From Thermococcus sp. (GTDB lineage: Archaea; Methanobacteriota_B; Thermococci; Thermococcales; Thermococcaceae): DNA of 35,373 bases. The position numbers were made by a program, and so were the translations under genes. Below, in pieces: positions 14,625 to 19,036 of this stretch (its first letter is position 1; each line of letters starts with the position of its first letter). The stretch is from NCBI RefSeq assembly GCF_026991495.1, contig NZ_JALXBJ010000085.1, positions 1 to 35,373 on the forward strand. The letters are read 5' to 3'. Under the pieces are notes generated by a model. It ran no database searches, had not been told where the DNA came from, and saw only the letters and a list, made by a program, of their open reading frames with translations.

Positions 14625-15053
14625 GTGGGCAAAGACGCGGGCAAGGTTAAGGCAGAGATAAGGGCCCTACTTGAGGAGGCCTACCGGTTCGGCTACTTTG
14701 TGGGCTACCGGGGGCACAGCGACTGGACAGGCTGGGCCCGCGAGAGGAGGGAGGAGATATACCAGAAGGCGGAGAGGCTCGGCGTCTACGAACTCGTCAA
14801 GAAGGCTTACAAGAGGGGGAAGGACGAGGGTTCGAGGAGGAGGGAGGAAGAAGTCCATCTCGGGCTCATTGAGAAGGGCCGGGTAGAGGTTGAAGAGGAG
14901 AGGCCATCTAAGAGGCCGGTAATCGAGGAGAGCGAGGAGGAAGAAGAGTTCGCCGAGTTCCTGAGGACAACAAAGCTCGTTCTCCCCCCGGAGTTCCTCA
15001 ACACCCTGAAGTACATGGAGATACCGCGGATGCTGAAGATGGGTGGTGAGTGA
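14625..15053 (+). CDS. uncharacterised charged protein in the KaiC-like/peptidase operon
   Basis: Not recognised. The 142 residues fall in two parts. The N-terminal helical half (EIRALLEEAYRFGYFVGYRG and WARERREEIYQKAERLGVYE) has an aromatic GYFVGYRG turn. A low-complexity acidic linker follows (IEESEEEEEFAEF) and then a short hydrophobic tail (LVLPPEFLNTLKYMEIPRML) that could dock onto a partner. GTG 14625 is chosen because GAGGTGAT sits five bases before it; ATG 14619 overlaps that site. Tight spacing on both sides makes it a probable adaptor between the ATPase and the peptidase, which is inference. Confidence 0.75.
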   Translation: MGKDAGKVKAEIRALLEEAYRFGYFVGYRGHSDWTGWARERREEIYQKAERLGVYELVKKAYKRGKDEGSRRREEEVHLGLIEKGRVEVEEERPSKRPVIEESEEEEEFAEFLRTTKLVLPPEFLNTLKYMEIPRMLKMGGE

Positions 15054-16735
15054 TGCTGAGGGACTTCCTGAAGGAAGCGGCCGGGTTCAGCACGGACCGG
15101 GTTCTGTGGGACATAGGCGAGATAAGCAGGTTCCACAGGATACAGGGCTCGAAAGAACTGCCGGAGGCCGCGAAGTTCGTGGCCGAAGAACTTAAGGTCT
15201 GGGGAATCGATGCCACAATCTTCGAGGAGACCTACAACGGCAGGGAGAGGTTCCTAACCCTCGTGTCCCCCATTGCGTGGGACCTTATAGGCGGCGAAGT
15301 GCAGCTCCAGGGGAGGAGAATGACAACTGGCGAGACTCCCCTCTTGGTCATGGCCCATTCTCCCCCTGGAGAGGCGGAGGGAGAAGTTATCCACGTTGCC
15401 GGTAAGGAAGACTGGGAAAAGGCGGAGGGGAAGATCGTCCTTGTTGGTAGGGACTGGCGGGAGGCTTACAGGAAGGCGAACGAGATGGGGGCCTCTGCCT
15501 TCATTGCCTACCGCGAGGGAACTGGAGACGCCTTCCCGTACATAGGCCTTTTTCTGAGGCGTGCTGACATGGAGTGGGCTAAGATACCCGCGGTCACCCT
15601 CCCGGGGTCGGTGGTAAAAGAGCTGCTGGGGAAGCTGACCGCAGGTGAGAAGGTCGTTGCGAGGGTCAAGGTCGATGCGGTGGTTAAGGAGAGGGAGACG
15701 CTCCCAATGGTCTACGCCGAGGTTGGACAAGCACCGTACATCCTCCTGACGGCCCACCTCTGCCACCCCATGCCCGGGGCCAACGACAACGCGAGCGGCA
15801 GCGCCATGCTGATTGAGCTCGCGAGGGTTCTTTCAAAGCTCCACTCCGCCTCCTTCAGATTCGGCTTTGCCTTCCTCTGGATGCCCGAATACTACGGAAG
15901 CCAGGCCTTTATTGAAAGGCATGCGGATCCGGGAAAGTACTACGTTGCCGTGAACCTCGACATGGTTGGGGGGAGTCCTGAGGTGTCTGGTTCAACGCTG
16001 ATGCTCGTGAGACCCCCGCTCTCAAGGTTCTCCGCGGCCTCAGGCATCCTTGAATACTTCCTCGACCTCTCAAACTCCGCGGGGAAGAGCTTCTCAGGCG
16101 AACCGACGCCTGCCATGCCGCTCAGATTTTACCCCTACGAGATGGGGAGCGACCATGACGTCTTCAACATCTTCGGCGTACCCTCGATGATGCCGATAAC
16201 GTGGCCGGACCGATTCTACCACTCAAGCGCCGATGCCGTCGACAAGATCAGCGGAAGAACTTTAGGAATTATAGGACGGGCCGCCCTGGCAGCTCTCCTG
16301 GCCCTCTCGCGGGCTCCCGTGGAAGAGATCGGGGCCTTTTCAAGGGCCTACTCCCTGAAATACATAGGTGAGCTCGGGATGAACGGGGCGATTGAGGTGG
16401 CCCCGAGGCTTGTGCTCGACGGTCTCCACAGGGACTCGAAATTCTTAGGATTCAAACTCGGCAGAAAGCTCGAAGAGAGGTTCTGGCTGAGGTGGAAGCT
16501 TAAGGGGATCCTGTCGCCGAGGGAGATCGAGGTCAGGGAGGGGCGGTTCAGGGAACTGACGCGGGATAGAAGGGTCCCCACGCAGCTCCACGAACTCCTA
16601 ATGCTCGGGGAGATTCTTCCAGAGGAAGCAGTGTACAAGGCTCTCAAGGAGGAGTTCGGAGCCTGCGAAAGGGAAAAGCTCCGGGAGCTCGTTTCAATCC
16701 TCGAAGAAAACGGCATGGTGGAGGTTGTCAGTTAG
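15053..16735 (+). CDS. M28-family zinc aminopeptidase (DUF4910-like) with PA-type insert
   Basis: Putative cytoplasmic di-zinc aminopeptidase of 560 residues without signal peptide. An N-terminal helical part precedes a protease-associated-like domain (about 80-215). The catalytic domain has HLCHPMPGANDNASG with H235 or H238 and D245 as metal ligands, then WMPEYYGSQAF with E279, NLDMVGG with D303, and a late FYHSSADAVD histidine. This fits M28 metallopeptidases of the DUF4910 group. The last ~110 residues look like a winged-helix tail (LHELLMLGEILPEEAVYKAL). ATG 15053 overlaps the previous stop by 1 base, with GGTGGTGAG upstream. The 3' end overlaps the convergent regulator gene by 8 bp. Substrate unknown. 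Confidence 0.9.
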   Translation: MLRDFLKEAAGFSTDRVLWDIGEISRFHRIQGSKELPEAAKFVAEELKVWGIDATIFEETYNGRERFLTLVSPIAWDLIGGEVQLQGRRMTTGETPLLVMAHSPPGEAEGEVIHVAGKEDWEKAEGKIVLVGRDWREAYRKANEMGASAFIAYREGTGDAFPYIGLFLRRADMEWAKIPAVTLPGSVVKELLGKLTAGEKVVARVKVDAVVKERETLPMVYAEVGQAPYILLTAHLCHPMPGANDNASGSAMLIELARVLSKLHSASFRFGFAFLWMPEYYGSQAFIERHADPGKYYVAVNLDMVGGSPEVSGSTLMLVRPPLSRFSAASGILEYFLDLSNSAGKSFSGEPTPAMPLRFYPYEMGSDHDVFNIFGVPSMMPITWPDRFYHSSADAVDKISGRTLGIIGRAALAALLALSRAPVEEIGAFSRAYSLKYIGELGMNGAIEVAPRLVLDGLHRDSKFLGFKLGRKLEERFWLRWKLKGILSPREIEVREGRFRELTRDRRVPTQLHELLMLGEILPEEAVYKALKEEFGACEREKLRELVSILEENGMVEVVS

Positions 16736-17066
16736 AGCGTTCAAGCTCGTGCTCAAGCTCGTCTATCTTCCTGAGGATAACGCTTTTTATCCTCTCAAGG
16801 ACCTCAGCGGGAGAAACCGCGGTGTAGGTGTAGCCCAACCAGCCCCTCTCGATCAGGCTCCTCTTGAGCATCCCCTTGCGGTAGAGGTTGAGGACGTGCT
16901 CCCTGACCGAGCGCTCGCTTATCCTGAGTTCCCTCTGTATCTCGGTGATCCTCATTGGCTTCCCCCTTTCAAGGAGGAGCCGGTATATCCTGAGCTCGCC
17001 TTTTTTGAGGCCGAGGGACTTCAGAAGCTCCTCCATGCGACTGTAAAGGTCGCCACTGCTACCCAT
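16728..17066 (-). CDS. winged-helix transcription regulator (ArsR/TrmB-like)
   Basis: A 112-residue regulator: a winged helix from about 18 to 85 (LKKGELRIYRLLLERGKPMR, ITEIQRELRISERSVREHVL) followed by a C-terminal helix (KIDELEHELERSN) suited to dimerisation. ATG 17066 has GGGGTGA upstream. A near-perfect palindrome covers its predicted transcription start, so it is very likely autorepressed. It converges on the M28 peptidase gene (8-bp overlap) and lies just downstream of the H/ACA RNA candidate on the same strand, with its own TATA box. No ligand-binding domain is seen, so the signal is unknown. Confidence 0.85.
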   Translation of the reverse strand: MGSSGDLYSRMEELLKSLGLKKGELRIYRLLLERGKPMRITEIQRELRISERSVREHVLNLYRKGMLKRSLIERGWLGYTYTAVSPAEVLERIKSVILRKIDELEHELERSN

Positions 17067-17072
17067 TCTTCA

Positions 17073-17108
17073 CCCCTATGAAGTTTTAACTTCATGGGGT
17101 TTAAAAAG
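17073..17108 (-). promoter_or_regulatory. promoter and palindromic operator of the winged-helix regulator
   Basis: ATGAAGTT-TT-AACTTCAT (17078-17095) is an 18-bp perfect palindrome flanked by CCCC and GGGG (17073-17076, 17096-17099). On the minus strand a TATA-like TTTTTAAA (17100-17108) lies just upstream, placing the transcription start inside the palindrome. This is a classic archaeal repressor geometry and suggests autoregulation. Confidence 0.65.
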
Positions 17109-17115
17109 TTTCCGC

Positions 17116-17240
17116 GGGTGTGGGCCGGGTACAGAGGCCCGCGTTCACCGCTCGCGCGGGTGGATGCCCCCGGCCCTGTGGGCCCGGCGTGAGCACTCCC
17201 CGCTCACCGCTCGCGGGGGCGGTTTACCGGGCCCGTGAAG
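17116..17240 (-). ncRNA. candidate two-hairpin H/ACA guide RNA
   Basis: Very GC-rich non-coding stretch that folds on the minus strand into two H/ACA units. Unit 1: lower stem GGGCCCG (17228-17234) with CGGGCCC (17180-17186), an internal pocket, upper stem CCCCGC/GCGGGG, then ACA (17177-17179) directly after the lower stem. Unit 2: lower stem GGGCCGGG (17169-17176) with CCCGGCCC (17122-17129), pocket, upper stem CCCGCG/CGCGGG, then ACA (17119-17121). Both apical loops contain the identical GAGCGGTGA, whose GA and TGA elements fit an L7Ae-binding K-loop. The plus strand lacks ACA at these places. A TATA-like ACTTTTAAG near 17288-17296 may drive it. The role would be guiding pseudouridylation with Cbf5, Nop10, Gar1 and L7Ae. 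Confidence 0.8.
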
Positions 17241-17287
17241 AGACGTCTGTCCCCTCACTGTCGGCGTTTTCCTTTCACATCAAAGGA

Positions 17288-17297
17288 CTTAAAAGTT
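17288..17297 (-). promoter_or_regulatory. possible promoter of the H/ACA RNA
   Basis: Minus-strand AAACTTTTAAG between the AsnC stop and the GC-rich RNA is the only TATA-like stretch there. It would start transcription near 17268, about 30 bases before the first stem. Confidence 0.4.
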
Positions 17298-17300
17298 TGA

Positions 17301-17756
17301 TCACTTCAGGGGAAGCTCCATTGTCTCCTTATGGACTTTGAGCGCCACCATCGTGTGGGTGGACTCGACGCCCTCTATGTCCCCGATCCTGTCGAGGAAG
17401 TCGTTCAGCTCTTCACTGTCCCGGGCCCTTATCTTGATTATCATGTCGTAATCCCCTGTGGTCTCGTAGACCTCCACTATCTTCGGGTGCCTCACGAGCT
17501 CCTCAGCGACCGCCGAGTACATACCCGCCTTGGCCTTTATCAGAACGAAGGCGAGCATGTCCAGCCCGAGGGCATGGGGGTTCAGGAGGACAGTGAACCT
17601 CTTTATGATCCCCCTCTCCTTCATCTTCTTTATCCTTTCGTAGACTGTAGACTCGGCGAGACCAACCTCCTTCGATATCTCCCTGAGCGGTGTCCTGCTG
17701 TTCTTCTGCAGTATGGCGAGGATCTTCCTATCCACATCGTCAATGCCGCCCCTCAC
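17301..17756 (-). CDS. Lrp/AsnC-family transcription regulator
   Basis: Feast/famine regulator of 151 residues. An N-terminal HTH (IDDVDRKILAILQKNSRTPL, then EISKEVGLAESTVYERIKKM) is followed by a RAM ligand-binding domain (MLAFVLIKAKAGMYSAVAEE, then VYETTGDYDMIIKIRARDSE). The domain ends with IEGVESTHTMVALKVHKE, the usual last strand. Such proteins form octamers that sense amino acids. GTG 17756 is preferred because GGTGGT is 6 bases upstream and an upstream TATA box (GTTTATAAG, 17787-17795) leaves a short leader; GTG 17765 overlaps the ribosome-binding site. The effector is not predictable from sequence alone. Confidence 0.92.
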   Translation of the reverse strand: MRGGIDDVDRKILAILQKNSRTPLREISKEVGLAESTVYERIKKMKERGIIKRFTVLLNPHALGLDMLAFVLIKAKAGMYSAVAEELVRHPKIVEVYETTGDYDMIIKIRARDSEELNDFLDRIGDIEGVESTHTMVALKVHKETMELPLK

Positions 17757-17786
17757 ACCGACCACCTTTAAAAAATTTTCGGAGGA

Positions 17787-17829
17787 GCTTATAAACTTGC
17801 CGATATCCCGTGACCATACTTTTATAAAA
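17787..17829. promoter_or_regulatory. divergent TATA boxes for the AsnC-type regulator and the DRG-type GTPase
   Basis: GTTTATAAG on the minus strand (17787-17795) serves the regulator. CTTTTATAAAAAGG on the plus strand (about 17818-17829) serves the GTPase. The regulator could act on both. Confidence 0.5.
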
Positions 17830-17869
17830 AGGCCCGGCTCTTTAATTCAGAAAACCCAGGGTGGTGGCT

Positions 17870-19036
17870 GTGCCGACGAACGTCACGGCGGAGTACCTGG
17901 CGGCCGAGGAGGAGTACAGGAACGCGAGGACGATACCCGAGAAGATAAGGGCCCTCGAAAAGATGTACGCGACGGTTCCGAAGCACAAGGGGACCGAAAA
18001 GCTCCGCCTGCAGATAAAGCGAAGGCTCTCCGAGCTCAGAAAGGAGCTTGAAAAGCAGAGGCAGGTGAAGAAGGGAGGTGGCGGGCCTTCTATAGCAGTC
18101 AAAAAGGAAGGAGCCGCTCAGATAGCCCTCGTCGGCCTTCCAAACGTCGGCAAGAGCTCCCTCCTGAGGGCCCTCACGAACGCGGACGTTGACGTGGCGA
18201 GCTACGCCTTCACGACCGTCCAGCCCATCCCGGGGATGATGCACCACCGGGACGTCCAGATACAGCTCGTTGAGGTTCCAGGCCTCGTTGAGGGGGCCGC
18301 CCTCGGAAAGGGCATGGGACCCCAGCTTTTGAGCGTTGTGAGGAACGCAGACGCTATAGCCATGGTGATCGACCTCTCCCGGGACCCAATCAAGCAGATG
18401 GAAGTTCTCCTGCGCGAGTTCGAGAGGGCCGGGATAAAGGTCAATAGGAGAAGGCCGAGGGTCGAGGTAAAGAGGACGGCGATGGGAGGCATCGTCATCA
18501 ACGGGGCCGAGAACATAAGGGGCGATGTGAGTGAGGTCATGAAGATCCTCAGGGATGAGAGGATCCACTCAGCCGAGCTGACTGTTAAGGAGCCGGTGAC
18601 ACTTGAGGAGATAGCCGATGCCCTCGACGAGAGTCTCGTCTGGCGCAGGGCGATAATAATAGCCAACAAGGGCGACGCCCCCGGGAGCAGGGAGAACTAT
18701 GAGAAGCTTCTCAAAGCCTACGGTGATCGCTTTAAGATAATCCCGGTATCAGCCAAGCGGAATATCCAGCTCGACAAGCTGAAGGACGAGCTGTACGAGC
18801 TCGCCGGGATAATAAGGGTCTTCACGAAAAGCCCAGGCGAGGAGCCTGCCTATCCCCCGGTGCCGCTCAAGAGGGGCTCGACCGTCATGGATTTAGCGGA
18901 GAGGATCCACAAGGACTTCACGAGGAACTTTCGCTACGCGAGGGTCTGGCGGAAGAGCGCTAAGTTCCCGGACCAGAGGGTGGGGGCAGATCATGTGCTC
19001 GAAGACGGGGATGTAGTGGAGATTCACGCGAGGTAG
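17870..19036 (+). CDS. DRG/Obg-type GTPase with TGS domain
   Basis: Developmentally regulated GTP-binding (DRG) type translation GTPase, 388 residues. An N-terminal helical region (about 1-78; EEEYRNARTIPEKIRALEKM) precedes the G domain: G1 GLPNVGKSS at 89-97, G2 in the YAFTTVQPIPG stretch, G3 present as EVPG rather than the usual DxPG, and G4 NKGD. An S5D2L-like insertion follows G3, and a C-terminal TGS domain runs from about 310 (GSTVMDLAERIHKDF to DVVEIHAR). Known members associate with translating ribosomes. GTG 17870 is chosen because GGTGGT lies four bases before it; upstream GTGs overlap that site. It is monocistronic with a strong TATA box. Confidence 0.93.
   Translation: MPTNVTAEYLAAEEEYRNARTIPEKIRALEKMYATVPKHKGTEKLRLQIKRRLSELRKELEKQRQVKKGGGGPSIAVKKEGAAQIALVGLPNVGKSSLLRALTNADVDVASYAFTTVQPIPGMMHHRDVQIQLVEVPGLVEGAALGKGMGPQLLSVVRNADAIAMVIDLSRDPIKQMEVLLREFERAGIKVNRRRPRVEVKRTAMGGIVINGAENIRGDVSEVMKILRDERIHSAELTVKEPVTLEEIADALDESLVWRRAIIIANKGDAPGSRENYEKLLKAYGDRFKIIPVSAKRNIQLDKLKDELYELAGIIRVFTKSPGEEPAYPPVPLKRGSTVMDLAERIHKDFTRNFRYARVWRKSAKFPDQRVGADHVLEDGDVVEIHAR

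Follow-up and report, generated by a model that had tools for sequence, protein, structure and literature searches.

The window (the whole stretch of DNA that was analysed, 35,373 nt) comes from a Thermococcus metagenome assembly, for which a nearly identical sister record exists in Thermococcus sp. isolate S013_22 (L089), with an Lrp-like gene that is 99% identical. On its minus strand, between two regulator genes as the original prediction had stated (one TrmB-like, the other Lrp/AsnC-like), it carries an element that reads, from 5′ to 3′, GCCGACA, a 10-bp hairpin, a first H/ACA motif, a second H/ACA motif and a T-run. The features of the locus, with the evidence for each, are the following:

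16728-17066, minus strand: TrmB-like regulator gene
17103-17107, minus strand: T-run, possible terminator (read from the sequence)
17108-17265, minus strand: HgcF/Pab35 RNA, whole (RF00058 match)
17119-17176, minus strand: H/ACA motif 2, equivalent of Pab35.2, with its ACA box at 17119-17121 (fold, RF00058 alignment)
17131-17136, minus strand: 3′ guide CUCUGU of motif 2 (target scan)
17145-17153, minus strand: K-loop GAGCGGUGA of motif 2 (sequence, alignment)
17162-17167, minus strand: 5′ guide GCAUCC of motif 2 (alignment, target scan)
17177-17234, minus strand: H/ACA motif 1, equivalent of Pab35.1, with its ACA box at 17177-17179 (fold, RF00058 alignment)
17189-17194, minus strand: 3′ guide GCUCAC of motif 1 (target scan; GUGCUCAC conserved)
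17204-17212, minus strand: K-loop GAGCGGUGA of motif 1 (alignment of 73 homologues)
17221-17226, minus strand: 5′ guide UAAACC of motif 1 (target scan)
17235-17258, minus strand: 5′ hairpin, 10 bp (fold)
17259-17265, minus strand: 5′ leader GCCGACA, preceding the 5′ hairpin
17288-17295, minus strand: TATA box CUUUUAAG of the RNA gene (upstream conservation)
17301-17765: Lrp/AsnC-like regulator gene

The TrmB-like gene lies downstream, and its AT-rich promoter region overlaps with the T-run. Between the start of that gene and this promoter lies an inverted repeat (ATGAAGTT-TT-AACTTCAT, 17078-17095), possibly an autoregulatory operator of the TrmB-like gene. The order M28 peptidase, TrmB-like gene, HgcF, Lrp-like gene, GTPase (15050-19036 in the window) was found in 13 of the 100 Thermococcus loci inspected, some of them duplicates; in the remaining loci HgcF has other neighbours.

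The covariance search that the original prediction had named as a check, run here against Rfam (cmscan), was positive: it returned RF00058 (HgcF/Pab35) at 17108-17265 on the minus strand, with 95 bits (E-value 2.6e-22) against a gathering threshold of 70 bits. The match spans positions 1-168 of the model and is not truncated, it is the sole Rfam match within the window, and HgcF is present in one copy in the host genome. Three other families were rejected as identities. Pab160 (RF02796) and Pab91 (RF02795) match motif 1 with 34.8 and 24 bits, below their gathering scores, and overlap with the HgcF match, which scores far higher; HgcE/Pab105 (RF00060) gives a weak match of 21.5 bits, to be compared with a gathering score of 50. 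Across the same taxonomic family HgcF was found in 59 of 61 genomes, including every one of the 53 with completeness of 90% or more and contamination of 5% or less, while none of 14 control genomes contained it. One of these matches, G007:C1:318231-318398, has the exact coordinates of Pab35 in Pyrococcus abyssi (PMC4652768). Homologues are transcribed in P. abyssi, at 318,227-410 (PMC4652768), and in Thermococcus onnurineus (PMC5316973). The claim that an archaeal box H/ACA guide RNA is encoded on the minus strand is hence borne out by this match and by the covariation described below, but its family had gone unrecognized: the RNA is not new. It belongs to an already known family with known targets and a known mechanism, and is an ordinary housekeeping RNA.

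Both consecutive stem-pocket-stem hairpins of the original prediction were recovered by folding, as motifs 1 and 2. Each consists of a lower stem, a pocket and an upper stem, with an ACA box that follows the lower stem immediately on its 3′ side, and each apical loop contains the same sequence, GAGCGGUGA, a putative L7Ae-binding K-loop. The distance from the closing pair of the pocket to the ACA is 15 nt in both motifs (the criterion being 14-15 nt), as read from the sequence with a closing G-U in motif 1 and a closing A-C layer in motif 2. Of the 73 homologues, 55 have A-C as the layer that closes the pocket of motif 2 (upper stem 17137-17161), 9 have G-U, 7 have A-U and 2 have A-G, a distribution that suggests an A+-C wobble, isosteric with G-U. 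The stretch first proposed (17116-17240) covered both hairpins, but extended 3 bases beyond the last ACA and fell short of 17235-17265, where the 5′ hairpin and the leader lie. This third, conserved hairpin (17235-17258) had been missed, and the RNA is consequently not a two-hairpin molecule of about 120 nt: HgcF here has three hairpins and a length of about 155 nt.

Folding of 17108-17265 yields a z-score of -3.8, with none of 200 shuffled sequences folding as well. In the first folding test, energy alone exceeds chance modestly on the minus strand (z -2.6); on the plus strand the fold is a little deeper (-72.9 kcal/mol, z -1.6). Both strands fold well, and this test by itself leaves the strand unsettled. 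The plus strand, however, has no ACA boxes, so that the features coincide on the minus strand only, as had been proposed; the only RF00058 match on the plus strand is at chance level (11.7 bits), and a plus-strand RNA was rejected as sub-threshold in the Rfam search. The deciding evidence is the RF00058 match (E-value 2.6e-22) together with covariation in relatives.

Covariation was analysed in an alignment of 73 distinct homologues, in which the two H/ACA motifs comprise 32 pairs. These pairs are formed in 97.8% of cells, and sliding the partners by 1-3 columns lowers pairing to 28-48%. Changes on both sides occur at 11 of them, amounting to 57 cells where 9.9 were expected, a value reached by none of 500 shuffles. 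Motif 1 accounts for both-side changes at 8 of its 18 pairs; a structure-aware count agrees with this result, and the pairing of motif 2 is kept among homologues. The lower stem of motif 1 in the window itself shows a compensated change from U-A to C-G, for which L061 has the intermediate U-G. The compensatory changes across Thermococcus anticipated by the original prediction are therefore present, and the H/ACA structure is under selection.

No 16S or 23S rRNA gene was found in the host assembly, and targets were hence read on relatives from the genus and on P. abyssi, scanning 664 uridines of 16S and 23S rRNA. An offset of 26 between our numbering and the published one for P. abyssi holds at each of three literature positions, 2672, 2549 and 2250 (the last a false target), all of which fall exactly on the sites predicted by pairing. 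The pocket of motif 1 pairs at 12 of 12 positions with 23S GUGAGC-U-G-GGUUUA (P. abyssi U2672), the best of the 664 uridines. The 3′ guide GCUCAC forms 6/6 pairs with GUGAGC upstream of U2672 and the 5′ guide UAAACC 6/6 with GGUUUA downstream of it, where P. abyssi has 3. On a rough estimate based on chance pairing, a random 12-nt pocket would reach 12/12 at any of the 664 sites with a probability of about 0.005. For motif 2, the 3′ guide CUCUGU pairs 6/6 with ACAGAG upstream of U2549, with a single base paired on the other side, and U2549 ranks fifth in the simple scan. Other uridines outrank it because the simple score overweights the 5′ guide. According to published work, it is the duplex with the 3′ guide that discriminates between sites, and the Pab35.2-L2549 pairing reported there likewise has a 3′ duplex of one base pair (PMC4652768), which resolves this ranking. 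U2672 and U2549 are the published assignments of HgcF/Pab35, and the P. abyssi targets have been validated experimentally (PMC4652768). The host genome encodes both Cbf5 (452.8 bits) and L7Ae (190.7 bits).

We also observed that the 5′ guide of motif 2, GCAUCC, is nearly invariant in homologues although only one of its bases is paired at U2549. It matches 6/6 to GACAGG-U-C-GGAUGC, a site 25 nt 3′ of U2672 (P. abyssi 2697); nothing on U2697 was found in the literature searched. In the predicted fold of the free pocket GCA pairs with UGU, and GCAUCC may perhaps be kept for this reason. As for the 5′ hairpin, pairs 1-7 are formed in 73 of 73 homologues (with the 3′ arm slid to its best register), and pair 2 exchanges C-G for U-A among them. 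One HgcF, L169:1450-1620 in Thermococcus genome G070, lacks this hairpin and keeps both H/ACA motifs, the first with a K-loop; a TATA-like stretch lies shortly upstream of its motif 1. The 5′ hairpin is hence conserved but not strictly required. That it constitutes a functional third module, and that motif 2 in addition has a further rRNA target at the U2697 site, is a combination that we consider rather unlikely.

Comparison of the upstream regions revealed a conserved TATA box, absent from the original prediction, which spans -28 to -23 relative to GCCGAC. The full upstream sequence is available for 68 homologues: all of them have T at -27 and A at -24, and 66 have T at -26. This conservation makes it very likely that the RNA gene has its own promoter. 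Taking these results together, we regard it as practically certain that the minus-strand element is the Thermococcus gene for the HgcF/Pab35 H/ACA guide RNA, with its own promoter and with U2672 and U2549 as targets.

The window copy differs from most relatives at the apex of motif 1, where the K-loop GAGCGGUGA stands in place of a K-turn and cap helix (73 homologues compared). About 11 nt are lost there, and the motif is 55 nt long, as against 64-70 in K-turn forms. The missing cap helix explains why the window copy has the lowest RF00058 score above the cut-off among family members (95 bits, at least 104 elsewhere). The short form of motif 1 was found in the window, its sister (L060/L089), L061/L062, L156, L049 and L169. 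In a weak tree built from about 150 columns without the apical ones, and with L169 left out, K-loop members occupy about four places, each adjoining K-turn forms. Sequence comparison indicates that about four or five lineages have replaced the K-turn of motif 1 by a shorter K-loop, with pocket and guides fixed. Such substitution is accepted in archaeal H/ACA motifs (PMC4652768), and because the published model allows it the cap-helix K-turn is not defining for H/ACA function. The apices of the two hairpins are identical because both are K-loops. We considered gene conversion as the origin of the identical GAGCGGUGA apices; it is not needed, and is indistinguishable from convergence on the K-loop consensus, and motif 2 of the sister copy L060 already has one base changed.

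The same loss of about 11 nt, and the lowest score among 59 genomes, would also fit a decayed or converted copy in which the shortened motif 1 no longer guides and motif 2 alone is active. We judge this very improbable. Indeed, the GA pairs, the ACA, the pocket and the 3′ guide of motif 1 are intact, its 5′ guide pairs with the target at 6 positions, better than the 3 of P. abyssi, and its lower stem carries the compensated C-G. Furthermore, several lineages have equivalent K-loop forms, and the near-identical sister (L060/L089) retains the same form. The other alternative, a chance G+C-rich inverted repeat or a terminator or attenuator between the regulator genes, with no RNA gene, would suit two strands that both fold well and a modest minus-strand energy excess, but it is already refuted by the full-length covariance match, the distribution of HgcF in the family and its presence where neighbours differ (they are common to only 17 of 100 loci), the covariation in homologues and a promoter at fixed distance.

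For the HgcF/Pab35 guide RNA we propose the following mechanism. A short minus-strand transcript, comprising the 5′ hairpin and the two H/ACA motifs, would be produced from its own promoter. L7Ae would bind both K-loops; Cbf5, associated with Nop10 and Gar1, would bind the ACA box and the pocket. The pocket of motif 1 would then hold 23S GUGAGC-U-G-GGUUUA and that of motif 2 ACAGAG-U-C, allowing Cbf5 to isomerise both uridines, which in P. abyssi are U2672 and U2549 of domain V, into pseudouridines. We infer both transcription and activity for the window copy. The original prediction, made blind from raw sequence, had identified a genuine H/ACA guide RNA and its strand correctly, and the analysis adds an annotated orthologue to the family.

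The closest known system is HgcF/Pab35 of P. abyssi (318,231-398), with which the window RNA shares the 5′ hairpin, the order of the motifs, the ACA boxes, the promoter spacing, the 3′ guides GCUCAC and CUCUGU and the rRNA targets. The two differ in motif 1, which in P. abyssi is a K-turn with a cap helix and in the window carries the K-loop GAGCGGUGA. They also differ in its 5′ guide, matching the target at 3 positions there and at 6 here, and in its lower stem, where U-A is replaced by C-G. Pab160 (RF02796) and Pab91 (RF02795) share the general H/ACA architecture, but are Pyrococcus RNAs with a single motif, whereas the window RNA has two. HgcE/Pab105 (RF00060), a two-motif Pyrococcus RNA, has tandem H/ACA motifs in common with it, but different guides.
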